Shown piece by piece: positions 21,451 to 46,112 of a DNA stretch of 64,000 nt; positions within the stretch are counted from its first letter, which is position 1; every line of letters starts with the position of its first letter. The notes beneath the pieces were generated by a model, which was not told the DNA's origin, did no database searches, and worked only from the letters and a program-made list of their open reading frames with translations. The position numbers were made by a program, and so were the translations under genes. The DNA is from Variovorax sp. IB41 (lineage in GTDB: Bacteria > Pseudomonadota > Gammaproteobacteria > Burkholderiales > Burkholderiaceae_C). Location of the stretch: the NCBI RefSeq assembly GCF_016405905.1, contig NZ_JAEFCB010000006.1, forward strand, positions 186,001 through 250,000, written 5' to 3'.

Positions 21451-21529
21451 GGAGGGCGTCAATCAGGGCGAAAAGCGTTTGCGAAGACAATCGGGAACCA
21501 AAAAAGCAAGCGCGCTTTCAACACCGACG

Positions 21530-29002: not shown

Positions 29003-29802
29003 GCCAAGTTCACTCCAATCTGCATCGAAGCCCCCTGTCCGACTGGTGGGAGGGCACGCGTCGTACCGACATCTGGTGGACGCTCGCCTGGTTCGATATC
29101 GTGCTGCGCTACCGCCGCTCCATGCTGGGGCCGCTGTGGCTCACCCTGAGCATGGGCGTCATGATCGGTGGCATGGGGCCGCTGTACAGCTCCCTGTTCG
29201 GCAGCGAACTGTCGCGGTTCTTTCCGCACCTGGCACTCGGCGTGATCTTCTGGGGCTTCTTCTCCAGTGTGGTTACCGACGCCTGCAACGCCTTTGTCGG
29301 CTCGTCCAACTACCTAAAGCAAGGCTATTTTCCGATCAGCCTTTTCGTTTGGCGCGGTCTTGCGCGCAACCTGATCCAGTTCGGTCACCAGATCGTGCTG
29401 TACATCCCGGTCGCCATCTGGGCCGGCGTCTCGCTGTCATGGTCAGTGCTGTTGATCGTTCCAGCCTTTCTGATCCTGATCGTCAACGCCCATGCTCTCG
29501 GCCTCCTTCTGGGGCTCATCTGCACCCGCTACCGCGACGTGACCCAGATCGTCACCAGCGTCATGCAGATGCTGATGTTCCTCACCCCCGTGTTCTGGCT
29601 GCCCGAAAACCTTCCGAGCCGCGCCAAGTATGTGCTCTGGAACCCTTTCGCGCAGATGCTCGACCTGCTGCGCACGCCGCTGATGGGCGGCGTGGCGCAC
29701 ATCCACAGCTGGATCGGCATCGGCGTGTGGACGGTGCTGTGCCTGACCGCCGCGAGCCTTCTGTTCATCAAATACCGCCGCCGCGTTGTCTACTGGCTCT
29801 GA
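28999..29802 (+). CDS. wzm: ABC-2 type polysaccharide exporter permease
   Basis: A 267-residue inner-membrane protein with six predicted membrane segments (for example LWLTLSMGVMIGGMGPLYSSLF and LIVPAFLILIVNAHALGLLLG). Family landmarks are DIVLRYRRSMLGPLWLTLS near residue 35, the GVIFWGFFSSVVTDACN re-entrant region, ICTRYRDVTQIVTSVMQMLMFLTPVFW and WNPFAQMLDLLRTPLMG. It forms the channel that moves the undecaprenyl-linked polymer to the periplasm together with the ATPase three bases downstream. The start overlaps manC's stop. Confidence 0.92.
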   Translation: MSQVHSNLHRSPLSDWWEGTRRTDIWWTLAWFDIVLRYRRSMLGPLWLTLSMGVMIGGMGPLYSSLFGSELSRFFPHLALGVIFWGFFSSVVTDACNAFVGSSNYLKQGYFPISLFVWRGLARNLIQFGHQIVLYIPVAIWAGVSLSWSVLLIVPAFLILIVNAHALGLLLGLICTRYRDVTQIVTSVMQMLMFLTPVFWLPENLPSRAKYVLWNPFAQMLDLLRTPLMGGVAHIHSWIGIGVWTVLCLTAASLLFIKYRRRVVYWL

Positions 29803-29805
29803 TCC

Positions 29806-30510
29806 ATGGCATTCATTTCACTCAAGAACGTCGCCGTCAACTTTCCCATCTACGGCGCCGGTGCGGCGTCGCTCAAGAAAACACTCGCCGCATCGGTCAC
29901 CGGCGGGCGCTTCGGCAAGGAAACCGGCGTCACCGTGGTGCAGGCACTCAGCGGCATCAACCTCGAGCTCAAGAGCGGCGATCGGCTGGGGCTGGTTGGT
30001 CACAACGGCGCTGGCAAGTCGACACTGCTGCGCACGCTTGCGGGCGTCTATGAGCCGTCCGCCGGTGAGTTTGCACGGCAAGGCTCGGTGGCAAGCCTGA
30101 TCGACCCGTCGCTGGGCATCGAAATGGATGCAACGGGTGTCGAAAACATCATGCTGCGCGGCCTCGTGATGGGCATGAGCAAGAAAGAGGTCGACCGACT
30201 CACGCCGGAGATCTGTGAATTCAGCGGGCTGGGCGAATACGTCAATATGCCCGTGCGCACTTACTCTACCGGCATGATGATGCGGCTGGCGTTCTCGATC
30301 TCCACCAGTGTGGAGGCCGACATCCTGCTGATGGACGAGTGGCTGTCTGTCGGCGACGCAGAATTCACCGAGAAGGCCGAGAAGCGCATGCGGGATGTGG
30401 TCTCGAAGTCAGGCATCCTGGTGCTGGCATCGCACTCCCCGGAATTGATTGCCAAGGAGTGCAATCGCGTGATTCACATGGAGCACGGTCGGATCGTCGA
30501 GGTTTCCTGA
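29806..30510 (+). CDS. wzt: ABC-type polysaccharide exporter ATPase, short form without C-terminal sugar-binding domain
   Basis: A 234-residue ATPase with Walker A GHNGAGKST (65-73), the Wzt-type signature YSTGM (153-157), Walker B LLMDEWL (174-180) and a switch His in ASHSPELIA. The protein stops right after the nucleotide-binding domain. The roughly 150-200-residue carbohydrate-binding domain that reads a chain-terminating cap in O9a-type systems is missing. Short Wzt proteins export non-capped chains in other systems, so the methyltransferase at 45078 is unlikely to act through this ATPase. Its stop abuts the stop of the convergent large glycosyltransferase with no gap. Confidence 0.92.
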   Translation: MAFISLKNVAVNFPIYGAGAASLKKTLAASVTGGRFGKETGVTVVQALSGINLELKSGDRLGLVGHNGAGKSTLLRTLAGVYEPSAGEFARQGSVASLIDPSLGIEMDATGVENIMLRGLVMGMSKKEVDRLTPEICEFSGLGEYVNMPVRTYSTGMMMRLAFSISTSVEADILLMDEWLSVGDAEFTEKAEKRMRDVVSKSGILVLASHSPELIAKECNRVIHMEHGRIVEVS

Positions 30511-33500
30511 TCAACGCCGCTTGCCGGCGCCGCTGCTGCGACGCAGCGCCCTGATTTCCGCCAACCGGGCCGCGACTTTTCGGCCCGCCACATCCAGGGA
30601 CAACGACATCTCCGCATCGGACTTGGCCCTGGTGCCGAGTTCAATGGCCCAAGCCTGATTGTCGAAAACACGCCTCATGAGTTGCGCAGCGTGCTCCTCC
30701 GAAGGCTCCGCCCACTCCAGATGGGCGTCGTAAGGGGGAATCGCTTTGCCCAGTTGAACAAGCTTGTAGTTCACCGGCAGGCTGTTGCTTTCGTCCATGA
30801 AATCCACGTTGCCCGAGAAGTTGGTTGCAATGACGGGCTTTCCCATCAGCATCGCCTCGGCCATCGTCAGCCCCAGGCCCTCGCTGCGGTGCAGCGACAC
30901 GTACGCGTCGCAAGCGTTCATCAAGGACAGCACGTCCTCCTGGCTGTAGACCTCGTTGATGATGGTGACGTTGGGCGCGAGCGCCGCGGCCTGCAGCTCC
31001 TGGAATTGCGCCGGATGGCGGTCGCCGAACGAGGTCTTCAGCACAAGGTGCACGGCGTCGCTCCTGCCGAAAGCCCGCTCGAACGCACGGATCAGCCCCA
31101 GTGGATTCTTGCGCTCCATGACACTCATCATGTGGAAGGTGAAGAGAAAGGTGTACGGCGCCTCCTGCAGACCGAAATACGAGCGCGGTCGTTTTTCATA
31201 TTGCCCCAGCTTGACTCCGGGGAACAAGGTGTGGACGGGGAGCGAGAGCCGCTTGCGCAGGCCGCGCGCCACAAACTCGGTAGCGGCCCACACTTCGTCG
31301 ATGTTCTGGGCATGCGCGGCCCAGGACTCGGGAATGGAATCGAATTCCCAGTACCAGTACGCAATGCGATGTGTTCGAGGCACCCGCTCACACAGATCGC
31401 TGCGGACAAACGCCTGATCGAAATAAGGATCCGGCTGCACGTGGATGAGGGTCGTTTCGTACTCCTCGAAGCCGCGAAAGTTCACGTGCGTCGGATCGTC
31501 TTTCTGATCCGTCCTGAGATCGCGCAATGCACTTCGGACGCCCACACGCTGCAAGCCTTCGACAAGGGCTTCGACCGAAACGCGAAGGCCCGAGGGATAG
31601 GAGAAGTGGCCGATGACATTGAGGCCGAGCTCGACCAGCTCGATGGCGGTCGTTTCCGTATCGAGACGGGCGCACCACTCGACGACTTCGCGAGGCTGAG
31701 CGGCCTCGGGCGATTGCAGCCACTCGATCAAGGCGGCAGCATGGTGTGGATCGTCCAGGCCCTGCGGGTGCCGGCGGCTCCAATCTTCACGGGCCAGATA
31801 GGCCAGCCGTATCTGTTGCGCAGCACTCATGTCGACGGGCCAGCACGAGGGATCTACCCAGGCCTGCGTCACCCTGTAGGCCGAGCCAAACCAGGCCGCA
31901 AACGCTCGGCGGCCGAAGACGGTCAGTCCGTCCGGATAGAGCGCCTGCCACGCTGGCGTGAATTCATAGGCACGCACCAACTCCCGGGCAGGCCGCTCCG
32001 ACGCCTCCCAGAACAGCCACCAAATCTCCTCGAACCGCAAACCGGCCAATCGCCGCCCGCGCCGCATGAACCAGTGGAACAGCTCGAATTGCCCCGCCGG
32101 CAGCAGCCCATAAGGCAATGCGCTCCTGATTTCGTCATGGAACAGAAAAGCCTGCCGCGCGCGCGCCCCGAGGTCTGCAGCCAGGCACTCGATCAACGCC
32201 GATCTCGCTGCGTCCGACAGCTGCAGCGCGCGGCCGCCCTCACCTCCGATCCAGCGGCCGAAGTCGCCATTCGCACCGTCGGAAAGCGCAGTTGGAAAGC
32301 GTCTGGCGATGTCGGGGCAGGTGCGCACGAGATCCAGGCACCAACGCGCCGCGGACCAGATGTCCCTGATTGCATGCGCCGGCTGCGGCAGCCACACCAC
32401 GTCCTGGCGCCCCAGCCCGGCGGCCTCCAGGCCGGTGCGGTCGCATGACAAAACCAGCGTCGAGGCAGGCAGCGTGGGTGAACCGAGCGCGCGCACGTCC
32501 GCCGCCAGACTTTCACGAACCGTCGGAGCCGCCCGAAGGCGCAACGAAGGGATCGGGTTTCGGGCATCCAATTCGGGATGAAGGTAGGGATCCTCGTCGA
32601 TGCCCAAAATTCGGATGTCGTCCGCAAAACGCTGCAGGTCGGGCGTCGGATTGACGGTGCCGCGCGTGGCGCCCTCGTGATGGACAAGACAGGCATGCGG
32701 CGCGTAGGCAATGCGGTAGCCCGCGCGCCAGATGCGAAGGCACAACATGACATCGCTGACCGCGACCAAGTAGGCCTCGTCGAAGCCGCCTACGCGCTCG
32801 AATGCATCGCGTCGTACCAACTGGCATGCGCCCATGATCGCCAGCCAGTTCCTGGGGTGCTCGGCGGAGCCAAAAACCCCCCACTCGCCTTCTTCTGCGG
32901 CGCGATACATCAGCCCGCCCAGGTTGATTCCGATTCCGACACCGCCATGCTGGATTTCCCCACTCGGGTAGCGCAGCTTGGTGCCGACAACCCCCACGCC
33001 GGGACGGCAGGCAAACCTCACCATTTCCTGCAGCCAGTCGCGCGACATCACTTCGATATCGTTGTTCAGGAACATGAGCAACTCGCCCGCCGCGAAAGAA
33101 GCGCCGTGATTGCACGCTGCGGAGTAGTTGAACTTCTTGCTGAAATGGACGACCGACACGTCGGCGTGGCACGCCAGTTCTTCGTAGTACGCCCAGGTCC
33201 TGGGCTCGACCGAACCGGTATCGACCAGAATGATCTCCCTGTTGGCATAGTCGGTGCCATGGAGCAGGCCTTCGACGCAGGTGCGCAGCAGTTCGACCTT
33301 GTCCTTGGTCGGAATGACGATCGACACCCGTGGCGGTGCCGTCAATTCCCAAGTGGCACGCTGCGTGCCGTCCGGCTGGGTCTCGATGGCGGCGTCGATC
33401 CCCGTGCGCGCCCAGAACCTGCGCAACGCCTCCCGGTTTTCCGCAGCCGCATCCGTACCGGCGCTCGCTCGATCACGTGCGACGCCCGCTGGCGTCCGGT

Positions 33501-34521
33501 GACACAACACCTTGGGAATGCGGGTAACGATGCCTGCAACATCGCTCACCCGAAGATTCAGGTCCCATTCGACATTCGCGCCCGAAGCCGTATCCACGCC
33601 GCCAACGGCGTCCACCAAATGCCTTCGCAGCAACGTCAGTCGTCCGAAGTAGTTGAACGCATAGAGCAGATCGGGCGACCAGCCAGGCTTGAAGTAGGGC
33701 TTTCGGCGAAAGCCTTCCGCGGAAATTTCGTCTTCGTCGCCATAGAGGATGTCGCTGTGCGGCAACCTGGCCAGCTCACCGGCAACCTCGGCGAGCGCAC
33801 CGGCGGCCACGATGTCACCTGCATCCAGAACGGCGAGAAAATCGCACGCAGCAGAGGCTGCGCACGCTGCGAGAGCCTGCGAGCGCGAATCCCCGTCGCC
33901 CATCGGGATTCGCACAATGCGCTGCTCTTTGGAAAATGCGTCCAACACGACCTGGATTGCAGGAGCGGCGCCTGACTCAATGGCGATCAAAGCTTGCCAG
34001 CGCTCGAAGGCCTGCGACCGCAATGACTCGAGGGTACGGCTCAGTGCATGCGGATCCGCTCCTGCGACGAGGATGAAGGAAAGTGAAGGCCCCGTCGAAA
34101 GGTCGCTCACGATCGGTGTACGGCTTTCGATCTCCGCAATCCAGCGAGCATATGCATCGTCAGCGTCGAGAGATCCGCCCAGCGCCTCTTCCACACGCGG
34201 CCTCACGCGCATTGCACGCAGGCGCTGCGGCATGCGCCAAGGCGTCAGTGCCCACCAAGCCGCCTTTACCATGCGCCGCGCATTCACCCGGACCGACGGC
34301 GGAACTGCCGTCGAGACTTTTCTCAGTGGCGCGGTCACGCGCCAGGAGATGGAATCGTGCATCGCGCGCTGCTGGCTCAGAGCTGCATCGGCTCGCTGAT
34401 TGGCCGCCTCGAGCAACGCCTCGAAGGCCAACGCATTGCCGCCTTCCAGGTTGCCTGGCTCATCAACACGGATCCCGTTTGGGGGAACCGGTTGATCCTG
34501 CTTGGACCCGTTATCGTTCAT
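30511..34521 (-). CDS. Giant multi-domain glycosyltransferase (GT2-GT2-GT4)
   Basis: A 1336-residue cytoplasmic protein. A short helical start ends in the SISWRVTAPLR motif (57-67). A degenerate GT2-like domain follows (SFILVAGADPHALSRTL, DFLAVLDAGDIVAAG, ILYGDEDEISAEG). A canonical GT2 domain starts near residue 385 (VSIVIPTKDKVELLRTCV, EIILVDTGS, FNYSAACNHGA, MFLNNDIEVMSRDWLQEM). A region of some 350 residues that I cannot assign follows (LRFEEIWWLFWEASERPAREL). The last third is a GT4 domain (ELGLNVIGHFSYPSGL, EGLGLTMAEAMLMGKPVIATNFSGN). It may add several residues of the repeat unit by itself. ATG 34521 keeps it clear of the upstream gene; no good ribosome site is visible. Confidence 0.85.
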   Translation of the reverse strand: MNDNGSKQDQPVPPNGIRVDEPGNLEGGNALAFEALLEAANQRADAALSQQRAMHDSISWRVTAPLRKVSTAVPPSVRVNARRMVKAAWWALTPWRMPQRLRAMRVRPRVEEALGGSLDADDAYARWIAEIESRTPIVSDLSTGPSLSFILVAGADPHALSRTLESLRSQAFERWQALIAIESGAAPAIQVVLDAFSKEQRIVRIPMGDGDSRSQALAACAASAACDFLAVLDAGDIVAAGALAEVAGELARLPHSDILYGDEDEISAEGFRRKPYFKPGWSPDLLYAFNYFGRLTLLRRHLVDAVGGVDTASGANVEWDLNLRVSDVAGIVTRIPKVLCHRTPAGVARDRASAGTDAAAENREALRRFWARTGIDAAIETQPDGTQRATWELTAPPRVSIVIPTKDKVELLRTCVEGLLHGTDYANREIILVDTGSVEPRTWAYYEELACHADVSVVHFSKKFNYSAACNHGASFAAGELLMFLNNDIEVMSRDWLQEMVRFACRPGVGVVGTKLRYPSGEIQHGGVGIGINLGGLMYRAAEEGEWGVFGSAEHPRNWLAIMGACQLVRRDAFERVGGFDEAYLVAVSDVMLCLRIWRAGYRIAYAPHACLVHHEGATRGTVNPTPDLQRFADDIRILGIDEDPYLHPELDARNPIPSLRLRAAPTVRESLAADVRALGSPTLPASTLVLSCDRTGLEAAGLGRQDVVWLPQPAHAIRDIWSAARWCLDLVRTCPDIARRFPTALSDGANGDFGRWIGGEGGRALQLSDAARSALIECLAADLGARARQAFLFHDEIRSALPYGLLPAGQFELFHWFMRRGRRLAGLRFEEIWWLFWEASERPARELVRAYEFTPAWQALYPDGLTVFGRRAFAAWFGSAYRVTQAWVDPSCWPVDMSAAQQIRLAYLAREDWSRRHPQGLDDPHHAAALIEWLQSPEAAQPREVVEWCARLDTETTAIELVELGLNVIGHFSYPSGLRVSVEALVEGLQRVGVRSALRDLRTDQKDDPTHVNFRGFEEYETTLIHVQPDPYFDQAFVRSDLCERVPRTHRIAYWYWEFDSIPESWAAHAQNIDEVWAATEFVARGLRKRLSLPVHTLFPGVKLGQYEKRPRSYFGLQEAPYTFLFTFHMMSVMERKNPLGLIRAFERAFGRSDAVHLVLKTSFGDRHPAQFQELQAAALAPNVTIINEVYSQEDVLSLMNACDAYVSLHRSEGLGLTMAEAMLMGKPVIATNFSGNVDFMDESNSLPVNYKLVQLGKAIPPYDAHLEWAEPSEEHAAQLMRRVFDNQAWAIELGTRAKSDAEMSLSLDVAGRKVAARLAEIRALRRSSGAGKRR

Positions 34522-34559
34522 TTGAATTGCGGGTAGATCGAGAATAAGGCCCGCACGCC

Positions 34560-37097
34560 TCAGTCGGTCCTGGCCGCGTCGAGCAAACCGTTTTCCCTCA
34601 TGATCTTTTCGAGCGAACGCTGGCACTGCAGCTCCTGGCGGGCGAGCCAGGTTTTGTCGGCCACATTCAACGCGTGCAGGCAAATCTTCGAAGTTGCTGC
34701 TCGCGAATAGTTGTCCTCGACATAGCGAAGGCCCGCTTCGCGCATGCAATTCCAAGCCGACTCATCGCCATAGATCCGAAGGACTTCGCTGGCGAACTGC
34801 AAAGGGTCGTCGGCGATCGACAAATGCTCGTCTTGCGCGTGTGCGATGCCTTCCGCAGCAATGTTCGTCGCCACGCTCGGCACACCGTGTGCGAGTGCCG
34901 TCACGAGCTTGCCCTTGATACCTGCCCCGTAGCGCAAAGGCGCCACGAAGACTCTGGACGCCTGAAAATACGGCTCAAGCTCTTCGACGAATCCGGTGAC
35001 GATCACCCGGTCGGACGCCAATGCCAGCACTTCGGCCGGAGGCTTGTTGCCCACAACCAGGAGCTTGGCATGGGGCGGAAGACTGGGAAGCAATTCGGGC
35101 CAGATCGACTTCACGAAGAACAGAACCGAGTCCACGTTGGGCGTGTGTGGGAAGTTACCCAGGAACATGACATCGGCCCGCGCCGAAAAGCCGGGGGTTT
35201 CCCGGTACACCTCGGCAATCCATGGAAGCACGACCAGATTGTCGAGAGGCAGGGGAAGCGCCTTCTGGATCACTTCCTGCTCGAACTGGGTGTGGATGAA
35301 TGAAGCGTCCGCGTGCGCGAACATCTCCAGTTCCTTCTTCTTTGTCAGTTGGGCCGCGAACAGCGCCTGCATGTCGTTGGCGGTTTCCGCGGCACGGGTT
35401 TCCCGCAGGTAATGCAAGTCGACGTTGGCAAACAGCACCCGCGTGGCCGGTGCCTTTGCACGCAGGCTGCGATAGATCGGATGAGCGACGTTGTAACGAT
35501 AGAGCAGCGCGTAATCGAAGGCGTTGTCGACATCGAGCACCTGCTCGACACTTTCGAAGAATGGCTTGTAATAGCAGCACACCCCACGCCGCTGCAGCGC
35601 CGCGGTGTATTTTTTCGACCAGTAAGGCGAATGCTCCGGAAAGAAGCTTTCGCCGAAACCAGCCTGGCGGTATGCGCTCATCACCTCGTTGGTCACGATC
35701 GAGCCCGAATCCTGGTCAGGTGTCGGCGTCAATGCATCGACGATCAGAATGTTCCGCTTGCTGCGCCAGCAAGCTGCTCGCATCGAGCTGCTGCCCGGAA
35801 TGGGATGCTCCGTCAGCTCCGCACTGAAGCGCTTGGCGAGCTTCTGCAGATTGGTGACCTGGTAGGCCTTGATGCCCTTCGTTGTGTCGCGCCCGTGCGT
35901 GATCCCCTCGTAGTGAACGGCGCGCGAGGTCGGGACAAACCACACTTCGTAGCCCGCACGGCGCAGCCGGAATGCAAGATCGGCGTCTTCGCAATATGCC
36001 GGCTTGTATTCGGGATCGAAACCGCCCAGTTCGTTCCAGACCGTTTTGCGAACGGCAATGGACGCGCCCGAAATGAAATCCGCCTGCCGGGCGAAACAGT
36101 ACTGCGGCAGGTTCGGGTCGGCGTTGCGGCCATAGTTGTGTGCAGACCCGTCGCGCCAGAAGATGCCCCCAGCCTCCTGCAGCGTGCCATCGGCATTGAA
36201 GAGCTTGGAGCCCACCATGCCGGCTTTGGGAAACAGGTCGAAAGCCGCAACAAGCTCATCGAGCCAACCCGCGGCAACGCGGGTGTCACTGTTCAGCAGA
36301 ACGACAAACTCGCCTCGAGCCTGTGCGACCGCCCAGTTGCAACACTCCAGAAAACCGCCGTTCGCAGCGCGCCGCTCATAGCGAATCCAAGGAATGCCGC
36401 CCAAGGCCTCCGTCTGTGATGACGCTGGAGAGGCATCGTCGGCAACGATCACCTCGATCGAATACCTGCTCTGCAGCCGCGCGAGCGAATCCAGGCAGTT
36501 CAATGCGAAGTGTGCCTGCCCATACACCGGGATGATGATGGACACCTTGGGCGTGGACAGATCGACGGTGAATGCCGGCACCCGCGCGGCCATTGCCTTA
36601 ACCGCCTCTGCGACGCCGTTGCCTGCTTCGCGCTGCCCGAAATCGAATCCTGCACCCGCGAAATATGCATGGCCTGCCACGAGCTCATATTGGATAACGT
36701 CGTCAGGCAGGGGATATGGACGATCCCTCTCCATCCAAGCGTAGTCTGGCTCCGGGCTGGTCGGAAGTTCTCGCATCTCTCTGCGGCCGAACTCCACCCA
36801 ATGAATCAGCGGATTGAGCGTTGCCCCCCGCACATCTGGATTCTTTCCCGAATAAGCTCGCATCGAGAACTTGGCCGACGGCTCGAGGCCCAGTTTCCAA
36901 CCACTGGAGAGATAGTGTTTCAGCGGATCGGCGCCGCCTGCAACCGCTGCCGGGTACTCCCGCCGATAGAAGTCGGCGTCGAACAAACCGGCCTCCCTGA
37001 TTGCCGCTGCGGCTGACGCGTTGCCAACCAGCTTCGCTCGCATGATGCGCAGTGCTTTCCTTGAAAGCCGTGCGGCCTGCTTGAGTTCTTTGATCAA
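34560..37097 (-). CDS. Two-domain glycosyltransferase (GT2 then GT4)
   Basis: An 845-residue protein. The first 150 residues carry two DADFYRREYP...YLSSGWKLGLEPS-type repeats, seen ahead of GT2 domains in polysaccharide enzymes (LFDADFYRREYPA, PLKHYLSSGWKLG, PLIHWVEFGRRE). The GT2 domain starts near residue 190 (VSIIIPVYGQAHFALNCLDSL, EVIVADDASPASS, GGFLECCNWAVAQARGE, LLNSDTRVAAGWL, EDADLAFRLRRAGYEVWF). The GT4 part begins near 465 (NILIVDALTPTPDQDSGS) and ends with GAGIKGKLVTALAHGVPSVATN. The start codon is TTG, supported by GGAGA four bases upstream; the next ATG is 18 codons further on. The large transferase gene follows 38 bases downstream. Confidence 0.85.
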   Translation of the reverse strand: MIKELKQAARLSRKALRIMRAKLVGNASAAAAIREAGLFDADFYRREYPAAVAGGADPLKHYLSSGWKLGLEPSAKFSMRAYSGKNPDVRGATLNPLIHWVEFGRREMRELPTSPEPDYAWMERDRPYPLPDDVIQYELVAGHAYFAGAGFDFGQREAGNGVAEAVKAMAARVPAFTVDLSTPKVSIIIPVYGQAHFALNCLDSLARLQSRYSIEVIVADDASPASSQTEALGGIPWIRYERRAANGGFLECCNWAVAQARGEFVVLLNSDTRVAAGWLDELVAAFDLFPKAGMVGSKLFNADGTLQEAGGIFWRDGSAHNYGRNADPNLPQYCFARQADFISGASIAVRKTVWNELGGFDPEYKPAYCEDADLAFRLRRAGYEVWFVPTSRAVHYEGITHGRDTTKGIKAYQVTNLQKLAKRFSAELTEHPIPGSSSMRAACWRSKRNILIVDALTPTPDQDSGSIVTNEVMSAYRQAGFGESFFPEHSPYWSKKYTAALQRRGVCCYYKPFFESVEQVLDVDNAFDYALLYRYNVAHPIYRSLRAKAPATRVLFANVDLHYLRETRAAETANDMQALFAAQLTKKKELEMFAHADASFIHTQFEQEVIQKALPLPLDNLVVLPWIAEVYRETPGFSARADVMFLGNFPHTPNVDSVLFFVKSIWPELLPSLPPHAKLLVVGNKPPAEVLALASDRVIVTGFVEELEPYFQASRVFVAPLRYGAGIKGKLVTALAHGVPSVATNIAAEGIAHAQDEHLSIADDPLQFASEVLRIYGDESAWNCMREAGLRYVEDNYSRAATSKICLHALNVADKTWLARQELQCQRSLEKIMRENGLLDAARTD

Positions 37098-37196: not shown

Positions 37197-38687
<1,491 letters not shown>

Positions 38688-39686
38688 ATGCACCTCAAGG
38701 GCAAAAAAGTATTGGTGACAGGTGCTGATGGGTTCATCGGCAGTCATCTGGTGGAAGCATTGATCGCGCACGGCTGCGACGTTCGTGCCTTCGTCTACTA
38801 CAACTCTTTCAGCAGCTGGGGCTGGCTGGATTCGCTGCCCCAGGAGGTCGTGCGCAACCTGAACGTGTTCTCGGGCGATATCCGGGACCCGAACGGCGTG
38901 TTCGAAGCAATGACGGGTTGCGATGTTGTCTTTCATCTGGCCGCGCTGATCGCGATTCCGTTCTCGTACCACTCGCCGGACTCCTACGTCGATACCAACA
39001 TCAAGGGCACCCTGAACGTTCTTCAGGCAGCCAAGCGGCTGGGCATCGAACGCTGCCTGGTGACCTCGACCTCCGAGGTGTACGGCACGGCGCAATACGC
39101 ACCGATCGACGAGAAGCATCCATTCCAGGGCCAGTCACCCTACAGCGCCTCCAAGATCGGCGCGGACAGGTTGGCAGAGTCGTTTCACAAGTCCTTCGAG
39201 ACCCCGGTTGTCATCGTGAGGCCGTTCAATACCTATGGACCTCGCCAGTCGGCACGCGCCGTGATTCCAACGATCATCACGCAGCTGATGCTCGGCGAGA
39301 AGGAACTGCGGCTTGGAAGCCTTTCGCCAACGCGCGACTTCAATTACGTCAAGGACACTGCGCAGGGCTTCATCGCACTGGCCGAATCGGACGAGACCAT
39401 CGGCAAGGAAATCAACATTGCGACCGGCAAGGAATATTCCATCGGCAAGGTCGCGGAGATCCTGGTGGCCGAGCTCAATCCGGATGCGCGCATCGTCACC
39501 GACGAACAGCGCCTTCGGCCAGACGCATCGGAAGTCTTTCGCTTGATGGGAGACAACACGCTGATCACCTCCCTCACGCCTTGGCGGCCTCGCTTCGATC
39601 TGGCGGACGGCCTGCGCGACACCATCGAATGGTTCAAGAACCCGGAGAACCTGTCGCGCTACAAAGCTTGGCTCTACAACGTTTGA
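38688..39686 (+). CDS. NAD-dependent nucleotide-sugar 4,6-dehydratase (LegB-like extended SDR)
   Basis: A 332-residue extended SDR with VLVTGADGFIGSHLVEALIAHG (NAD-binding), YNSFSSWGWLDSLP, DVVFHLAALIAIPFSYHSPDSYVDTN, TSTSEVYGTAQYAPI, the catalytic SPYSASKIGADRLAESF, and RPFNTYGPRQSARAVIPTII. The combination VYYNSFSSWGWLD and ALIAIPFSY is characteristic of the LegB-type 4,6-dehydratase subgroup, whose members act on UDP- or GDP-activated sugars. It would give a 4-keto-6-deoxy sugar. ATG 38688 has AAGAAGAGA upstream. It heads a tightly packed plus-strand operon of six genes, and the nucleotidyltransferase 12 bases downstream presumably charges its substrate. Confidence 0.88.
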   Translation: MHLKGKKVLVTGADGFIGSHLVEALIAHGCDVRAFVYYNSFSSWGWLDSLPQEVVRNLNVFSGDIRDPNGVFEAMTGCDVVFHLAALIAIPFSYHSPDSYVDTNIKGTLNVLQAAKRLGIERCLVTSTSEVYGTAQYAPIDEKHPFQGQSPYSASKIGADRLAESFHKSFETPVVIVRPFNTYGPRQSARAVIPTIITQLMLGEKELRLGSLSPTRDFNYVKDTAQGFIALAESDETIGKEINIATGKEYSIGKVAEILVAELNPDARIVTDEQRLRPDASEVFRLMGDNTLITSLTPWRPRFDLADGLRDTIEWFKNPENLSRYKAWLYNV

Positions 39687-39698
39687 GGAGGTTTCACC

Positions 39699-40412
39699 AT
39701 GAGAGCAGTCATTCTTGCCGGCGGTAAAGGCACCCGGCTTCGGCCCTACACCACGTTGATTCCCAAGCCGCTTGTCCCGCTCGGGGGGAAATACTCGATT
39801 CTCGAGATCATCATCATGCAGTTGAAGCAGGCCGGCTTCACGCGGATCACGCTCGCGGTGAATCACCTGTCGCAGCTGATCATGGCCTACTTCGGCGATG
39901 GCTCGCGCCTGGGCGTGCAGCTGGACTATTCGCTGGAGGAAGGTGAACTCAGCACCATTGGTCCGCTGACGCTCATCCCCGATCTGCCGGAGAACTTCCT
40001 CGTCATGAATGGCGACATTCTTTGCGACCTGGACTACCAGCGTTTTTTCCAGTCGCATGTGGCAGCCAAGGACATGGTGTCGGTGTCGGCCTACCGCCGT
40101 GAGGTCAAGATCGACTTCGGGGTGCTGCGCTACGACGCCGATGGCCGCCTGAACGAATTCCAGGAAAAGCCGACCTACGACTTCGACGTCAGCATGGGCA
40201 TCTACTGCATCCATCGCTCAGTCATCGAACGCCTGCCCAAGGGTGGCAAGTATGGCTTCGACAACCTGATGATCGACGGCCTCAAGGACAACCAGCGCAT
40301 CGCCATCAGGCCATTCGACGGGTACTGGCTGGACATCGGCCGTCCCGACGACTACCAATACGCTGACGACAACTTCGAAGAGCTCGCAACGAAGCTCGGA
40401 ATCGGCTCTTGA
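39699..40412 (+). CDS. Sugar-1-phosphate nucleotidyltransferase
   Basis: A 237-residue NTP_transferase with VILAGGKGTRLRPYTTLIPKPLVPLGG (nucleotide-binding GGxGTRLRP and catalytic PKP), FLVMNGDILCDLDY (metal-binding Asp), NEFQEKPTYDFDVSMGIYC and GYWLDIGRPDDYQYADDNF. It lacks the C-terminal beta-helix of GlmU and the cupin of ManC. The base cannot be assigned from the sequence; GDP and CDP are both plausible, and context with the two SDR enzymes suggests one dedicated nucleotide-sugar route. AGGAGG lies upstream. Its stop overlaps the TTG start of the next gene. Confidence 0.88.
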   Translation: MRAVILAGGKGTRLRPYTTLIPKPLVPLGGKYSILEIIIMQLKQAGFTRITLAVNHLSQLIMAYFGDGSRLGVQLDYSLEEGELSTIGPLTLIPDLPENFLVMNGDILCDLDYQRFFQSHVAAKDMVSVSAYRREVKIDFGVLRYDADGRLNEFQEKPTYDFDVSMGIYCIHRSVIERLPKGGKYGFDNLMIDGLKDNQRIAIRPFDGYWLDIGRPDDYQYADDNFEELATKLGIGS

Positions 40413-41260
40413 AGACGGCGCTGATCACGGGTTCGACGGGCGCATTGGCGCAAGCCATCGTCGCCCGGCTCCAGCAGACGGGGACGTTCAACGTCGTGGC
40501 AACGAGCCGAAGCGCCGACGCGCTGCAACTCGATGTGCGGGACGGCGAGCGCCTGGAGGCGCTGCTCCAGAAAACCCGCCCGGACCTGATCTTTCATCTG
40601 GCCGCCACCTTCTCGGGCGAGTACGACGAGGCCTATGCGGTCAACGTCGATGCCACGCGCCGGCTGCTGGAACTCGTTGAACGCGCACATGCCGGCACCC
40701 GCGTGTTGCTGGTGGGTTCCGCTGCGGAATACGGCGCAGTCGGCGTCGAAGAGAACCCGATTCGGGAAGACCATGCGCTGCGTCCGCAATCCGTGTATGG
40801 CCTGACCAAATCGTGGCAGACCCAGCTGGCTGGTTTCTACGCCCTTCGCGGCGTGCAGGTGGTGGTGGCACGGCTGTTCAACCTTCAAGCGCCCGGTCTT
40901 TCGAACAGGCTATTCGTTGGCCGGGTACAGACGCAGATCGAAGAGGTTCGCAAAGGTGCGCGGTCGGCCTTCGAGTTCGGCCCCCTTGGTGCAACGCGAG
41001 ACTACGTGGACGCGGATGAGGCGGCAAGGCAGATGCTGGCCGTGGCGATCGACGGCGAACCTGGACACGTGTATCACGTCGGAAGCGGCATGCCCGTCAC
41101 CATGCGCTCCCTGCTGGAGCGGTTGCTCGCCTCCGAAGATATGAGCGCAATCCCGGTGCACGAGTCTCCGGCCCTCACCAACCGCGCCGGGTACGACGTT
41201 CCGGCCATCTACGCAGACATGACCAAGACACTCCAGTTGATGGGAGAGGGAAAGCCATAG
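40409..41260 (+). CDS. NAD(P)-dependent nucleotide-sugar 4-reductase/epimerase (Rmd-like)
   Basis: A 283-residue extended SDR: ALITGSTGALAQAIVARL, LIFHLAATFSGEYDEAYAVNVDATRRLLEL, VGSAAEYG, and the catalytic SVYGLTKSWQTQLAGFY (Tyr-x-x-x-Lys). VGRVQTQIEEVRKG and FEFGPLGATRDYVDADEAARQM resemble GDP-6-deoxy-4-keto-D-mannose reductases (Rmd), which yield GDP-D-rhamnose. It could serve the product of Gmd or of the adjacent LegB-like dehydratase. The start codon is TTG, overlapping the previous stop (TTGA), so translation is coupled. Its own stop overlaps the next GTG by one base. Confidence 0.84.
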   Translation: MKTALITGSTGALAQAIVARLQQTGTFNVVATSRSADALQLDVRDGERLEALLQKTRPDLIFHLAATFSGEYDEAYAVNVDATRRLLELVERAHAGTRVLLVGSAAEYGAVGVEENPIREDHALRPQSVYGLTKSWQTQLAGFYALRGVQVVVARLFNLQAPGLSNRLFVGRVQTQIEEVRKGARSAFEFGPLGATRDYVDADEAARQMLAVAIDGEPGHVYHVGSGMPVTMRSLLERLLASEDMSAIPVHESPALTNRAGYDVPAIYADMTKTLQLMGEGKP

Positions 41261-42213
41261 TGACGAAGTTGAAGCTGACCGTTGTCACCCCCGTCTTCAA
41301 CGAGGAGCACGTCATCGCGCACTTTCACGAGCGCGCAAAGAAAGTGCTGGAGTCCATCGAGGAAGTCGAATGGAACATCCTGTATGTGGTGGATCAGTGC
41401 ACCGACCGCACGGTGGAGGTTCTGCGAACGGTCGTCGCCGGCGACCCCGCCGCCAAGGTGCTGGTGCTGTCGTCCCGCTTCGGGCACCAGATGTCGCTGC
41501 TCGCGGGCATCGAGCACTCGCTCGATTCAGATGTCATCGTCATGATGGACAGCGACCTGCAGCATCCACCCGAACTCATACCGACGCTGCTGGAAGAATT
41601 CAAGCGCGGCAACGAGGTGGTGTACACGCTGCGCCAGGATACCGAGGACGTGGGCTTCCTGCGAAAGCAGGCCGGCAACCTCTTCTACAAGCTGCTGGGC
41701 AGCATTTCGCAGGTGCCGATCAATCCCAACGCGGCAGATTTCCGGCTCATCTCCAGGCGGGTGGCGCGCACCTTGTCCCAGGGCTTCCAGGAACGTAACA
41801 TGTTCCTGCGCGGGCTCTTCTCCTGGATCGGATTCAGGCAGGCGGGGGTCGAATTCGTAGCCGAGAAACGCTTCGCGGGGCAGTCCAAGTACTCACTGTC
41901 CAGAATGATCCAGCTCGCCATGGCGGGCATCCTTTCGTTCAGCACCAAGCCGCTTCAGCTGAGCATCTTCGTGGGCGGGCTGTTTGCGTTGCTCGCCTTT
42001 CTGTTGATCGTGGTGCTGGTCATCAAGTACTTCTTCGTGCAGTCCATCCCGAACGGCTGGACGACGATGGTGGTTCTGCTCCTGCTGTTCAGCGGCATCC
42101 AGCTCATCGTCCTGGGCATCATGGGCGCGTACGTGGGAGGCATCTACGACGAGGTCAAGGGCCGCCCACGCTACATCGTCGAAGAAGAAATCTCCCACCG
42201 CCCCGCACCGTGA
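41260..42213 (+). CDS. Polyprenyl-phosphate glycosyltransferase, GtrB/DPM1-like (family 2, two C-terminal membrane helices)
   Basis: A 317-residue enzyme. The cytosolic GT-A domain shows LTVVTPVFNEEHVIAHFHERAKKVLE-type start (TVVTPVFNEE), YVVDQCTDRT, SSRFGHQMSLLAGIEHS, the metal motif VMMDSDLQHPPELIP (Asp97 and Asp99) and FLRGLFSWIGFRQ. Two C-terminal helices (LSIFVGGLFALLAFLLIVVL and MVVLLLLFSGIQLIVLGIMGAY) end in the family tail YVGGIYDEVKGRPRYIVEEE. Such enzymes put one sugar on undecaprenyl phosphate at the inner face of the membrane. Start codon is GTG. The GtrA and YfhO genes follow, with overlaps. Confidence 0.92.
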   Translation: MTKLKLTVVTPVFNEEHVIAHFHERAKKVLESIEEVEWNILYVVDQCTDRTVEVLRTVVAGDPAAKVLVLSSRFGHQMSLLAGIEHSLDSDVIVMMDSDLQHPPELIPTLLEEFKRGNEVVYTLRQDTEDVGFLRKQAGNLFYKLLGSISQVPINPNAADFRLISRRVARTLSQGFQERNMFLRGLFSWIGFRQAGVEFVAEKRFAGQSKYSLSRMIQLAMAGILSFSTKPLQLSIFVGGLFALLAFLLIVVLVIKYFFVQSIPNGWTTMVVLLLLFSGIQLIVLGIMGAYVGGIYDEVKGRPRYIVEEEISHRPAP

Positions 42214-42728
42214 CAGCATGGCACTGGCTCATCGAGCCGGTGCCATGCCTGCAGATGCGAGAGCCTGTCCTTCATTCAAACCTCATGCCGAGACCAGGCT
42301 CCTTCACCCAATCCGTCCTCGATCGCTGCCGCTCCGAACAGGTCCGGCAGCTTTTTCGTTTCCTCGTCGTCGGGGTTGCCAACACGGCGTTCGGCTACTC
42401 CATCATCTTTGCCTGCATGTACCTGGCGGGTCTGTCCGCGGAGCTGAGCAACGCGATCGGCTACGGCATCGGCCTGATGGTCTCCTACGTGATGCACAAG
42501 GTGTTCACGTTCAACAGCGACAGGCCGCATCGCGAAGCCTTCGTCCGTTTCCTCGTGGTGTTCGCGGTGGCCTATGCAGCGAACCTGCTCGTGCTGGTCA
42601 TTCTGGTGCGAGGCCTCGGAGTGCATGAAGCCGTCAGCCAGGTCATCGCGAGCGCGGTCTATGTGATCACTTCCTTCATCATGAACAAGCTGTATGTCTT
42701 CAGGCAACCTCATGACGACGCAAAGTAA
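42210..42728 (+). CDS. GtrA-like membrane protein (probable lipid-linked sugar flippase)
   Basis: Up to 172 residues with four membrane segments: FRFLVVGVANTAFGYSIIFACMYL region, AIGYGIGLMVSYVMHKVFTF, FVRFLVVFAVAYAANLLVLVI and VIASAVYVITSFIMNKLYVF. The pattern of F-x-VG-x-NT, Y--S---NK-FTF and F---NK-YVF is typical of GtrA. These proteins are thought to flip the undecaprenyl-phosphate-linked sugar made by a GtrB partner. The GTG start at 42210 overlaps the previous stop; ATG 42285 gives a 147-residue protein of more usual length and is equally possible. No good ribosome site distinguishes them. Confidence 0.87.
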   Translation: MTAWHWLIEPVPCLQMREPVLHSNLMPRPGSFTQSVLDRCRSEQVRQLFRFLVVGVANTAFGYSIIFACMYLAGLSAELSNAIGYGIGLMVSYVMHKVFTFNSDRPHREAFVRFLVVFAVAYAANLLVLVILVRGLGVHEAVSQVIASAVYVITSFIMNKLYVFRQPHDDAK

Positions 42729-45051
42729 ATCTGCACGCCCACGCGTGGTCATCGTGCTGGCAGCGCTTGTCTCGCTCTGGTGCATCTTTCTGTGGCCCGC
42801 CTTCGACAAAGCACATTCTTTCGCCCTGTGGATGGACAACGAGTTCTTCATCGGCACGGTGCTTTCGTCGATGTCTTCAAGTCTCGCCCACGGCGAATGG
42901 CCGCTCAGGATGAACACCATCCTCGGGGGCGTGCCGCTGCACAACTTCGCACAGCTGTCGGCGTTCTATCCTTTCTATCTGACGCCATTGCCGCTCTTCG
43001 AGAGCCCGCTCCAAGTCGTTCATTCGATGCACTGGCTGACGCTCGTCCATCTGTTGATCCTCGAGGTCAACATGTATGTCCTGCTGCGCACTATGCAGGC
43101 CTCGCGCATCGGGGCGGTCACCGGGGCCGCGCTTTTTGCCTTCGGGGCGAACAGCCTGTCTTATGCGGCGTGGCTCAACATCGTCGCACCCTATGCCTGG
43201 CTGCCGCTGTACCTGGCAGGGCTGCTGGGCCTGTTGTCGCCCGAAAGCTCGCGGCGCCATTTCATCATGGCTCTGACGGGGATCGTGCTGCTGACGCTCG
43301 CATCTCCCGCTCAGCCACTCATCCACGCCATCCTGTTGAGCGGCGTTTTCTGCATTGCCTATGCAATCGGCACCAAGCGGGCCGACGGGTGGAGGAGCAT
43401 CGGAAACTCGGCTGTGAAAGTGGGCATCGTGGCGGTGATCGCGGTGCTCCTGGTCTCACCCGTCATTGTCCCGACTGCCCTGGAATTCAAGAACATGATC
43501 CGGTGGATCGGGCACTTCCCTCCCGTCTTCGGCAACAGCCGCATTCCATTCGAAGCGTTTCAGGTCGATCAGCTCGCCCCCCGGAACCTCGGTGGTGTCC
43601 TGTTCAAATTCGAGTGGAATGCGGTGGGCAGCCAGTTCATTGGGCTGGTCTCGGCGGCTTTGGCATGCGTGGCCGTCGTTTCCCGGCCTCGCTCCTGGCT
43701 GGTGTGGGCGCTCGTGTTCGTTGCGGTCTACGCCTTGATCTCGTCGACGGGCAGCAACCTGGGCCTTGCGCACCTGAACTACATCGTTCCGATCCTGAAC
43801 AAGATCCGTGAGCCCAGCCGTTTTCTCGTCCTGTTCCAACTGGCGATGACAGGGCTTGCAGCCTTTGGCATCGACGAAATTCGCCGCGAACTCTCCTCCA
43901 GCGAAGCTGGCCGTCGTCGCCTGGCGACCCAGCTCTTTGCGATGGGAGCTGTCTTGCTGGTTGCGATCCTTGTGGCTTGGTACTGCAAGGACCGCATCGT
44001 CTCCACCGTGCCCTCGTGGGCCCCGCTTGCCACGTTGTCCGGACTTGTTGTCGCCACCGTGCTGATGGCGCGTTTCCGCTCGGCCACCCGAGGCGTGCAG
44101 GCGGCAGCCATGTGGAGTGCGGCCGCCCTGGTCCTGGTTCTGGTGGATGTCCCGTGGCGGCCACCAGGCATATCGAGCAGTTTCTACAACACCAACCATG
44201 CGGGTCGGCTCGACGAGGCGCTCGACCGGGTGAAGGCACTGGACCCGAATCACGACTATCGCGTCGTGTTCGATGGAAAGATCGACAAGCAGCTGGGCGC
44301 CATGCTGGCGTCCTACAAGGGGATCCGCAGCTTCAACGCCTACTTCAACCCTGCGCCCAAGCAGCAGTTCGACGAGCTTTATTACCATGCACCGCGCAAC
44401 GACAACTACTTCCGCTTGCTCGGCGCCAGATACCTGATTTGCGACGATTGCCCGCCGGAGGCGTTGCGGGGCTACACGCACAAGGAAGACATCGCCGGAC
44501 TGGCGTTGTACGAGGCGGAAGCCGCGCTTCCTCACGTTTACGCGGCCATGACATTGGACGGGGTCTATGAGTCGATGGGCGATTTCTCGGCGAAAGCTGC
44601 GTCCGCCGATCTCACTGGCAGCGTGCTGTTCGCGAAATTGGACAGCGGCGTCCTGCCTCGCTCGACCGATGCAAAGAACCAGGCACGCTGTGATGTCAAG
44701 GAAGACCTTCCGCGCGGCACCAACCAAGTGCGGGTGCGCATCGCTTGCCCCGCGGCGGCCATGCTGGTTCTGAACGAGTTCTTCGACAAGGCGTGGAAGG
44801 TCTCGGTCGATGGCCATCGCTCGAAGCTGGGCCCGATGAACGGCAACCAGATCGGCACGCTGGTGCCGCCGGGAACGCACATGGTCGAGTTCAAGTACCG
44901 GCCCGCCACTTTCATGTGGTCGCTGCCGCTGCTCGCGCTCGGACTGGTTCTCCTCCTCGTGCTGCTGACAGCAAGCCGAAGATGGTTGCCTCGTCTCAAC
45001 CGGAGGCAGCCCACGGTGCCGCACGGCGGCACCTCTTCGTCAATAGGCTGA
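42712..45051 (+). CDS. YfhO-family membrane protein (probable GT-C glycosyltransferase)
   Basis: A 779-residue polytopic protein. Residues about 15-460 contain roughly a dozen hydrophobic segments. A large soluble, presumably periplasmic domain of some 250 residues and a final helix (FMWSLPLLALGLVLLLVLL) complete it. The first loop after helix 1 has the acidic pair in LWMDNEFFIGT, where GT-C enzymes place catalytic acidic residues. FAFGANSLSYAAWLNIVAPYAWLPLYLAGLLG-type segments and NKIREPSRFLVLFQLA match the YfhO family. In Firmicutes such proteins transfer lipid-linked sugars outside the membrane. ATG 42712 overlaps the GtrA gene by 17 bases. Confidence 0.86.
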   Translation: MTTQSKSARPRVVIVLAALVSLWCIFLWPAFDKAHSFALWMDNEFFIGTVLSSMSSSLAHGEWPLRMNTILGGVPLHNFAQLSAFYPFYLTPLPLFESPLQVVHSMHWLTLVHLLILEVNMYVLLRTMQASRIGAVTGAALFAFGANSLSYAAWLNIVAPYAWLPLYLAGLLGLLSPESSRRHFIMALTGIVLLTLASPAQPLIHAILLSGVFCIAYAIGTKRADGWRSIGNSAVKVGIVAVIAVLLVSPVIVPTALEFKNMIRWIGHFPPVFGNSRIPFEAFQVDQLAPRNLGGVLFKFEWNAVGSQFIGLVSAALACVAVVSRPRSWLVWALVFVAVYALISSTGSNLGLAHLNYIVPILNKIREPSRFLVLFQLAMTGLAAFGIDEIRRELSSSEAGRRRLATQLFAMGAVLLVAILVAWYCKDRIVSTVPSWAPLATLSGLVVATVLMARFRSATRGVQAAAMWSAAALVLVLVDVPWRPPGISSSFYNTNHAGRLDEALDRVKALDPNHDYRVVFDGKIDKQLGAMLASYKGIRSFNAYFNPAPKQQFDELYYHAPRNDNYFRLLGARYLICDDCPPEALRGYTHKEDIAGLALYEAEAALPHVYAAMTLDGVYESMGDFSAKAASADLTGSVLFAKLDSGVLPRSTDAKNQARCDVKEDLPRGTNQVRVRIACPAAAMLVLNEFFDKAWKVSVDGHRSKLGPMNGNQIGTLVPPGTHMVEFKYRPATFMWSLPLLALGLVLLLVLLTASRRWLPRLNRRQPTVPHGGTSSSIG

Positions 45052-45077
45052 GTCGGCCCAGCCGCCTGCAGCGCGCA

Positions 45078-46112
45078 TCAACGCAATGCGCGCTGCACCC
45101 AGCGAAGGGGTGCCAGGAGCCTCCAGGAGCGCGAATTCAGGATGGCGGCGAGGCGCTGCTCGCTCTGGGTGGCCTGCTGGGCGAGCGATGCCTCCAGCCG
45201 CCGGCATTCGGCCTCGGACTTCGCGCGCGCTTCGTCCCATGCGGCACGCTCGGCATTCATCGACAAGGCCCACGCACTGCGTTCTTCGAACTCTTTCTGA
45301 AGCGCCACATGCCGGGCCTCGAGTTCGGCGTGCTCCTTGTGCAGTCCGGAAGCCCAGTGCATGACATTCTGCTGATCCGCATACAGATCGTTGCCGGCTT
45401 CGGCAAACAGATTGGGAGCCAGCGGCGGCAGCAAATCCTCATTCGCAGCGCAGACAGCGACGAAGTACATCGCCCGGTCTGCGCTCTGGGTCTGCACCTT
45501 CAACTGATCGCCCGACAGGAGCAAGGCCTCGTAGTTGCGAGCGCTTCCTTCCAGAGGAAACAGCGCCGACGCAGTCAGGAAGCGCTGGGCAAAGTATCGG
45601 TTGGCGGGGAAGAAACGACCCAGCAGCGCATCGAGTTCGTCGAAATACAGCTCCTTGACGTGAAACTCGTTCACGTAGTTTCTTTCGTCCGAGTACACCT
45701 TCTTGTTGGGCGAAGAGATGACCAGGATGCCCGAAGGCTTCAGCACGCGCCGCAACTCTCCCAGCATTTCCTCCTGCTGCGCCAGGTGCTCGAGCGTCTC
45801 GAAAGACACGGCGACATCGACGCTGGCATCTTCCAGGGGAATGGCAGTTGCACTGCCTTGGACGAACCTCAGATTGGTCTGTGCGGCGTAGCGTTGCCGG
45901 GCATGCTCGACGGCTTCATTCGAGATGTCCACCCCGACCACGGAGCCCGCCGTGTTCGCCAGCAGCGCGGAGCCGTAACCCTCGCCGCAGGCAATGTCCA
46001 ACACATCGCGCCCCGCGCACAGCGACTGCATCCACCCATACCGGTGCATGTGCTCGTAGCGGATCTCGCCCTGTTCCGTGGGAATGAACCGTTCACCGGT
46101 GAAATTCAACAT
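45078..46112 (-). CDS. Class I SAM methyltransferase with C-terminal coiled coil and SWRLLAPLR motif
   Basis: A 344-residue protein. Residues 1-200 are a methyltransferase: VLDIACGEGYGSALLA (motif I, 38-50), VVGVDISNEAVEHAR, SFETLEHLAQQEEMLGEL and LRRVLKPSGILVISSPN. From about residue 255 to 326 an uninterrupted heptad-rich helix follows (EHAELEARHVALQKEF, AWDEARAKSEAECRRLEASL). The last 18 residues contain SRSWRLLAPLRW. A methyltransferase plus coiled coil recalls WbdD-type chain terminators that measure O-antigen length, but no kinase domain is present. It sits 27 bases after rfbC on the same strand and is probably the last gene of the rhamnose operon. Confidence 0.85.
   Translation of the reverse strand: MLNFTGERFIPTEQGEIRYEHMHRYGWMQSLCAGRDVLDIACGEGYGSALLANTAGSVVGVDISNEAVEHARQRYAAQTNLRFVQGSATAIPLEDASVDVAVSFETLEHLAQQEEMLGELRRVLKPSGILVISSPNKKVYSDERNYVNEFHVKELYFDELDALLGRFFPANRYFAQRFLTASALFPLEGSARNYEALLLSGDQLKVQTQSADRAMYFVAVCAANEDLLPPLAPNLFAEAGNDLYADQQNVMHWASGLHKEHAELEARHVALQKEFEERSAWALSMNAERAAWDEARAKSEAECRRLEASLAQQATQSEQRLAAILNSRSWRLLAPLRWVQRALR

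Follow-up and report, generated by a model that had tools for sequence, protein, structure and literature searches.

A probable self-supplied glycosylation cassette with a YfhO-family protein in an ABC-type polysaccharide locus of Variovorax sp. IB41

Three-component glycosylation systems acting on O antigens exported by ATP-binding cassette (ABC) transporters have been described in Klebsiella and also in Citrobacter O1/O2 (PMC11127046; this and all papers below are cited from excerpts). In Klebsiella, whose O antigen is ABC-exported (PMC11127046), galactan is decorated by gmlABC (PMC5403891). Here we describe a group of six genes found in a 64,000-nucleotide stretch (hereafter the window) of the genome of the soil bacterium Variovorax sp. 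IB41. The group is likely to constitute an extracytoplasmic glycosylation cassette of the three-component type, which would provide its own sugar and decorate an ABC-exported polysaccharide. Given the Klebsiella and Citrobacter systems, both the mechanism and the setting of such a cassette have precedent.

The module consists of six plus-strand open reading frames (ORFs) at positions 38688-45051 of the window, all of which were confirmed with the ORF list and with Pfam profile scans, and all of which were retained by gene calling based on GC3 (G+C content at third codon positions). The genes are tightly packed, with overlaps or gaps of at most 12 bases, counting the gtrA ORF from its first start. 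Their families and order, both observed directly, are: (i) a LegB-type 4,6-dehydratase, (ii) a nucleotidyltransferase, (iii) a reductase of the short-chain dehydrogenase/reductase (SDR) family, (iv) a GtrB-like glycosyltransferase of family 2 (GT2), (v) GtrA and (vi) YfhO (Table 1). An earlier note on this DNA, made from its letters alone, had recognized these six overlapping or tightly spaced genes, and Pfam bears out their families; it had put the nucleotidyltransferase first, a place that belongs to the dehydratase, and was right about the remaining order. Its proposal that 41260-45051 encodes GtrB-, GtrA- and YfhO-type proteins agrees with the profile matches, that of the last protein to the YfhO family being above the family cutoff.

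Table 1. Coordinates of the module, of elements in and near it, and of related loci (window positions unless a locus is named)
Feature	Position	Strand	Profile match or description
LegB-type NAD-dependent 4,6-dehydratase (SDR), first gene	38688-39686	+	TIGR04180 494.8 bits (cutoff 475); PF16363 (GDP_Man_Dehyd) 235 bits
Sugar-1-phosphate nucleotidyltransferase	39699-40412	+	PF00483 (NTP_transferase) 132 bits
SDR-family probable 4-keto reductase	40409-41260	+	PF01370 (Epimerase) 106 bits
GtrB/PgfS-like polyprenyl-phosphate glycosyltransferase, GT2 domain	41260-42213	+	PF00535 (Glycos_transf_2) 77 bits
GtrA-like membrane protein, candidate flippase	42285-42728 (ORF from 42210)	+	PF04138 (GtrA_DPMS_TM) 92 bits (cutoff 26.1)
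YfhO-family polytopic protein, candidate GT-C glycosyltransferase	42712-45051	+	PF09586 60.9 bits (cutoff 28.5)
Hairpin at gtrB-gtrA junction	42216-42248		15-nt arms, 93% complementary, 3-nt loop
Inverted repeat, possible terminator	45067-45097		perfect 12-nt arms, 7-nt loop
ABC-2 polysaccharide exporter permease (true start probably inside ORF)	28681-29802	+	PF01061
ABC exporter ATPase, short form (234 aa)	29806-30510	+	PF00005
Pair of very large ORFs for multidomain glycosyltransferases (1414 and 845 aa)	30511-37097		GT2 and GT group 1 domains in both
Trio-only locus (G224)	L050:8157-11953
Trio-only locus	L055:9165-14885
Trio-only locus	L056:7542-13661

Sequence features of the individual proteins are in keeping with these families. 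The motifs TSTSE-x-YG and YSA[ST]K are present in all seven aligned dehydratase sequences, including that of the window. GtrB carries two hydrophobic segments at its C-terminus (hydropathy), and its likeness to PgfS and to its solved relatives, sll0501 and the undecaprenyl-phosphate Ara4FN transferase, extends over nearly the full length; judged by sequence, it would belong to the membrane GT2 type that charges polyprenyl phosphate, and GtrA to the GtrA-type flippase family. The first start codon of the gtrA ORF is a GTG within gtrB, and an alignment with four relatives suggests that the true start lies later, probably at the ATG at 42285.

From these protein families we infer each enzymatic step of the following route. 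A hexose-1-phosphate would be activated by the nucleotidyltransferase, probably giving a GDP-sugar, and converted by the LegB-type dehydratase to a 4-keto-6-deoxy sugar, which the SDR enzyme would reduce at C4 to a nucleoside diphosphate-linked 6-deoxyhexose, possibly GDP-2-acetamido-2,6-dideoxyhexose. GtrB would then transfer the deoxy sugar to undecaprenyl phosphate, GtrA would flip the lipid-linked sugar, and YfhO, acting as a GT-C-type transferase, would attach it, outside the inner membrane, to the polysaccharide delivered by the neighbouring ABC transporter. Relatives that have a methyltransferase gene in the module probably add a methyl group to the sugar ahead of this flipping step.

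The same gene order was observed directly in three more Variovorax genomes, G052 (J22R193), G841 (KK3) and G843, which indicates that the module is a real unit, as the earlier note had supposed; this holds with the qualification that the other three of these four loci include a methyltransferase as a seventh gene, which the window lacks. In all four YfhO loci (4/4) yfhO directly follows gtrA. When the five loci carrying this gtrB (at least 61% identity) were compared, the dehydratase-nucleotidyltransferase-reductase trio was immediately upstream, in the same order, in each. As expected from linkage, GtrB reaches 61% identity or more in five of 101 Variovorax genomes, and it is in precisely these five that the identity of the reductase is 43% or higher.

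In G046, G047 and G224, the last of which represents another family of Burkholderiales, the stretches read (19-20 kb) contained the trio but no gtrB match, and in each of these a gene with conventional glycosyltransferase domains directly follows the trio. The sugar supply thus looks like a separable unit. These loci speak for a different view of the module, namely that the trio feeds cytoplasmic backbone glycosyltransferases, the GtrB-GtrA-YfhO part uses a housekeeping sugar, and the two halves are neighbours and not one pathway. We regard this as quite unlikely, considering the constant position of the trio upstream of gtrB and the fact that the nucleotidyltransferases of the gtrB loci are at least 76% identical to one another but only 41-47% identical to those of the trio-only loci. 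It looks as if a separable sugar supply had been joined to a three-component machine in one lineage. This and the other alternatives considered below are not mutually exclusive, and the probabilities that we assign to them overlap. A further reductase match, in G095, adjoins a relative of gmd (GDP-mannose 4,6-dehydratase gene), and the trio was not found in the stretch read there.

The cassette is apparently rare and patchily distributed. In these genome searches few candidates were scored per genome (2, 6, 8 or up to 24), so that absence is no proof. YfhO was found in 2 of the 101 drawn Variovorax relatives (the window genome and G052), a draw that covers the genus only partly and outside which G841 and G843 seem to lie. 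PF09586 was matched in 2 of 399 Burkholderiales genomes, that of the window included, one of them above the cutoff and the search being of limited sensitivity; the cassette, whose gene order recurs in the three further Variovorax genomes, therefore does not look like a general feature of Burkholderiales. The reductase (E ≤ 1e-30) was detected in 7/101 Variovorax genomes, 3/399 of the order and 1/299 of the phylum, the window genome being counted in each. A scan of a named genome collection with two peptide patterns, which is not exhaustive and may leave out the window's own genome, gave YfhO relatives in two loci, both from Variovorax (J22R193 and KK3). Among plasmids, neither a reductase match at E ≤ 1e-25 nor a YfhO match at E ≤ 1e-5 was found.

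The region around the module is a surface-polysaccharide locus of the ABC type, as the earlier note had stated, with an ABC-2 permease and an ATPase upstream (Table 1). The upstream part further comprises a ManC-type guanylyltransferase/isomerase, the two multidomain glycosyltransferases and the GDP-mannose 4,6-dehydratase. Downstream of the module are genes for a methyltransferase, a dTDP-4-dehydrorhamnose 3,5-epimerase, a nucleotidyltransferase and an SDR-family dehydratase, the last three of which are probably rmlC, rmlA and rmlB; further away, GT2 enzymes, a family-4 sugar-phosphate transferase and an acyltransferase-SGNH protein are encoded. The GC content of the module is approx. 58-63%, that of the neighbouring polysaccharide genes (approx. 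28-46 kb) 58-65% and that of the rest of the window 62-72%. The best NCBIfam match of the exporter ATPase is the galactan Wzt/RfbE model NF050108 (264.4 bits), and since gmlABC decorates galactan in Klebsiella, this counts in favour of decoration of an ABC-exported polysaccharide. As a separate observation, an acyltransferase-3 fused to an SGNH domain (21479-23584) may O-acylate the same or another surface glycan.

Several observations weigh against the proposed function, the first of them concerning acceptor and sugar. The acceptor is inferred only from the location of the module, and the exporter ATPase misses the cutoff of NF050108 (400 bits). GtrA, GtrB, the nucleotidyltransferase and the reductase reach no listed NCBIfam cutoff. 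The same three-component machinery might serve another acceptor (a protein, lipid A-core or another envelope glycan), the polysaccharide locus being merely its location. The nearest NCBIfam model of GtrB is indeed PgfS of Streptococcus mutans (NF047588), which takes part in the modification of surface proteins along with an epimerase and membrane proteins, according to the available part of PMC5856776, and YfhO acceptors differ even between Listeria and Bacillus (PMC7389260, in excerpt). The PgfS match (254.9 bits) is, however, under its cutoff of 500, and gmd and a multidomain glycosyltransferase related to that of the window are located within approx. 10 kb on the dehydratase side in all four six-gene loci, which makes a different acceptor unlikely in our judgement.

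The remaining difficulties concern YfhO, the proposed transferase. Its family membership is clear: PF09586 was matched by all three proteins scanned, i.e. that of the window and two orthologues (E ≤ 0.01), in the three aligned proteins the motif MDNEFF is invariant, and simple hydropathy gave 10 hydrophobic segments in the window protein and 12 in the G052 orthologue. The expected GT-C fold was not recovered. An AlphaFold2 model built from three sequences was poor (mean predicted local distance difference test score, pLDDT, 41.3), and that of the outer domain alone reached a pLDDT of 58.8; a Foldseek search of the latter against PDB gave no match at E ≤ 0.001, a PDB profile search with a two-sequence YfhO alignment no relative at E ≤ 1, and NCBIfam no match at E ≤ 0.001. 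The top 50 Foldseek rows for the outer domain were a mixture of phage tail, glycoside hydrolase and sigma-1 receptor chains and were not used.

The YfhO family is best known from Gram-positives but extends beyond them, since PF09586 was matched in a Bacteroides as well as in Bacillus and Lactococcus among 14 control genomes. Its distant members in the phylum add to the points above. YfhO-like matches were found in 31 of 398 genomes of the phylum, the window's included. Among the matches listed, all apart from that of the window start at model position 580 or later, i.e. they cover the C-terminal part. The contexts of such matches in 20 of the 30 other genomes contained no GtrA-like protein and one GtrB-like protein (25% identity) in a BLAST search with Variovorax queries, which is weak for short, diverged GtrA and in which some contigs were short; YfhO-like proteins of the phylum thus seem usually to lie outside such cassettes. 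In G141, a YfhO-like protein (35.4 bits, C-terminal part, under the cutoff in the genome search) was accompanied by no gtrA or gtrB match on its 8-kb contig. Together with the lack of fold support, these contexts would suit a YfhO protein with another membrane role, e.g. acceptor binding, the real transferase being encoded elsewhere. We consider this very unlikely: YfhO has been genetically assigned as the transferase in the systems of Bacillus, Staphylococcus and Listeria (PMC8035078 and PMC7389260, both in excerpt), yfhO keeps its place directly after gtrA, and the search of the 20 contexts can miss diverged GtrA.

Returning to the sugar that the proposed cassette would use, the evidence from the trio favours a GDP-linked 6-deoxy sugar. 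The first enzyme scores only 81.7 bits on the GMD model (cutoff 415), unlike the neighbouring gene at 37197-38231, which is a true GMD (466.2 bits), and among relatives the LegB model TIGR04180 was passed by the enzyme of G024 (504.1 bits) and missed by those of the trio-only loci of G224 (470.6) and G047 (421). The top solved relative of the nucleotidyltransferase is a mannose-1-phosphate guanylyltransferase, with a UTP-glucose-1-phosphate uridylyltransferase at nearly equal score, and the best solved relative of the reductase is 2pk3, a GDP-6-deoxy-D-lyxo-4-hexulose reductase (E 3.3e-27). LegB of Campylobacter uses GDP-N-acetylglucosamine (PMC7439481, in excerpt), and a review of dehydratases recognises a GDP-N-acetylglucosamine route (PMC8987622, in excerpt). 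The LegC aminotransferase (TIGR04181) had no match at E ≤ 0.001 in the window's own genome (in the control set, 13 of 14 genomes gave matches, one of them over the cutoff); legionaminate synthesis was therefore rejected, and the dehydratase probably does not feed it. On the strength of these matches and of the missing LegC match, a GDP-linked 6-deoxy product appears favoured, its 2-acetamido-2,6-dideoxy form being about as likely as the plain one. The dedicated 6-deoxyhexose of the earlier note is thus plausible, but the LegB-type dehydratase points equally to GDP-linked 2-acetamido-2,6-dideoxyhexose.

Three forms of the gtrB loci can be distinguished: (i) the six genes of the window, (ii) the seven-gene form of G052, G843 and KK3, with the methyltransferase gene between gtrB and gtrA, and (iii) the form of G024, in which the order is dehydratase-nucleotidyltransferase-reductase-gtrB-methyltransferase-gtrA. 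No YfhO match was found within the 19.9 kb read of G024, and a 745-residue polytopic protein encoded directly upstream of its cassette could stand in for YfhO. Neither Pfam (no match at E ≤ 0.01) nor hhalign (probability 0.1%) supported a relationship of this protein to YfhO, and a second polytopic protein of G024 gave an hhalign probability of 1.4%. The same genome encodes, at L054:13845-17981, a GT2 protein, a GtrA-matching stretch (BLAST) and a polytopic protein of 687 residues that had no match in Pfam, which together may be a second lipid-linked glycosylation set. In the window, a methyltransferase at 16853-17713, more than 20 kb from the module and beside a catalase gene, shares 65% identity over 236 residues with one adjoining the dehydratase gene in G052, G843 and KK3.

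To compare the proteins of these forms, the mean distance from the window to the other loci was divided by the mean within the set of three methyltransferase-type loci (2000 bootstraps on trimmed columns free of gaps). The ratios were 1.10 for gmd, 0.95 for the dehydratase, 1.44 for the nucleotidyltransferase, 1.22 for the reductase, 1.72 (1.42-2.15) for GtrB, 2.35 (1.74-3.39) for GtrA, the highest, and 1.42 for YfhO; before spurious N-terminal extensions were trimmed, those of GtrB, GtrA and YfhO had been 1.32, 2.52 and 1.39. The divergence of GtrA is in keeping with a flippase adapted to the sugar with or without its methyl group, although this is a single comparison involving a single locus that lacks the methyltransferase, and a replacement of gtrA in the window would give the same signal. 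The GtrB and GtrA intervals overlap, and the ratio of YfhO, which should also see the sugar, is unexceptional; both count against a simple selective flippase. We therefore propose only tentatively, and with considerable doubt, that the cassette is a tunable decoration device, in which the methyltransferase would modify the lipid- or nucleotide-linked deoxy sugar before flipping and GtrA would be matched to the methylation form. If so, GtrA would be a selective and not a generic flippase, and the GT-C part would be exchangeable (as in G024). The natural forms with and without methyltransferase offer a means of asking whether flippases of the GtrA type are selective for their sugar. A second GtrA-family gene (66 bits) is present in the same genome beyond the window (G000:C20:35419-35769).

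At the gtrB-gtrA junction, where relatives carry the methyltransferase gene, the window has a hairpin shortly downstream of the nominal gtrA start; it could represent a scar or have a regulatory role. The surrounding 56 nt have a folding energy of -35.4 kcal/mol (z -5.6; 0/200 shuffles as good). A dispersed repeat was ruled out by the single occurrence of its 25-base core in the genome, allowing up to 2 mismatches, and a search for a methyltransferase remnant at the junction gave no convincing match (the best had an E of 0.46 in a stretch of 270 bases and was on the opposite strand). Where yfhO and the downstream methyltransferase gene converge, a second inverted repeat lies between their ends and is possibly a terminator shared by both. 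A promoter scan was uninformative, with no promoter-like sites (1.5 in shuffles) and 4 terminator-like sites (5.1 in shuffles).

With regard to known systems, a literature search, with most subscription papers outside its scope, found no description of a YfhO-type transferase in a Gram-negative cassette of this kind and no match for Variovorax together with YfhO. The earlier note had set the module against the systems of Firmicutes; the same three families are indeed shared, but this framing was too strong in view of the Klebsiella and Citrobacter precedents (PMC11127046). Three-component glycosylation of ABC-exported polysaccharides is known in Gram-negatives, and the unusual features are limited to the YfhO-type protein and to the sugar trio that accompanies it. 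If the proposed function is correct, the known means by which Gram-negatives diversify exported polysaccharides would be extended by a decoration cassette that is of the YfhO type and supplies its own sugar.

The closest systems, as far as the excerpts describe them, share some of its features each. The CsbB-GtcA-YfhO systems acting on teichoic acids of Bacillus, Staphylococcus and Listeria likewise combine a polyprenyl-phosphate GT2 enzyme, a GtrA-type flippase and YfhO (PMC8035078), whereas the window represents a Gram-negative host with an adjoining sugar-nucleotide trio; the tabulated Gram-positive YfhO systems add N-acetylglucosamine to teichoic acids (PMC8035078), unlike the deoxy sugar proposed here. 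LegB of the legionaminic acid pathway resembles the window dehydratase, which passes the TIGR04180 cutoff, but in the window a reductase follows instead of an aminotransferase. In the Streptococcus mutans Pgf system, a GtrB-like PgfS, a sugar-nucleotide enzyme and membrane proteins are encoded in one operon, but the substrate is protein, the membrane protein is of the PMT-2 type and a flippase is unmentioned in the main text (PMC5856776). GtrABC serotype conversion and Klebsiella gmlABC are similar in the three-component addition of side chains to O-polysaccharide, the latter also in acting on an ABC-exported polymer, and differ in adding Glc or Gal, with no dedicated deoxy-sugar trio mentioned in the excerpts (PMC11127046, PMC5403891). 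The GT136 pentofuranose system of Citrobacter youngae also has genes for sugar loading, a flippase and a GT-C enzyme linked to an O-antigen locus and, in contrast to the window, employs a ribose-phosphate donor made from PRPP (phosphoribosyl pyrophosphate), a MATE flippase and a GT136 enzyme (PMC11127046).

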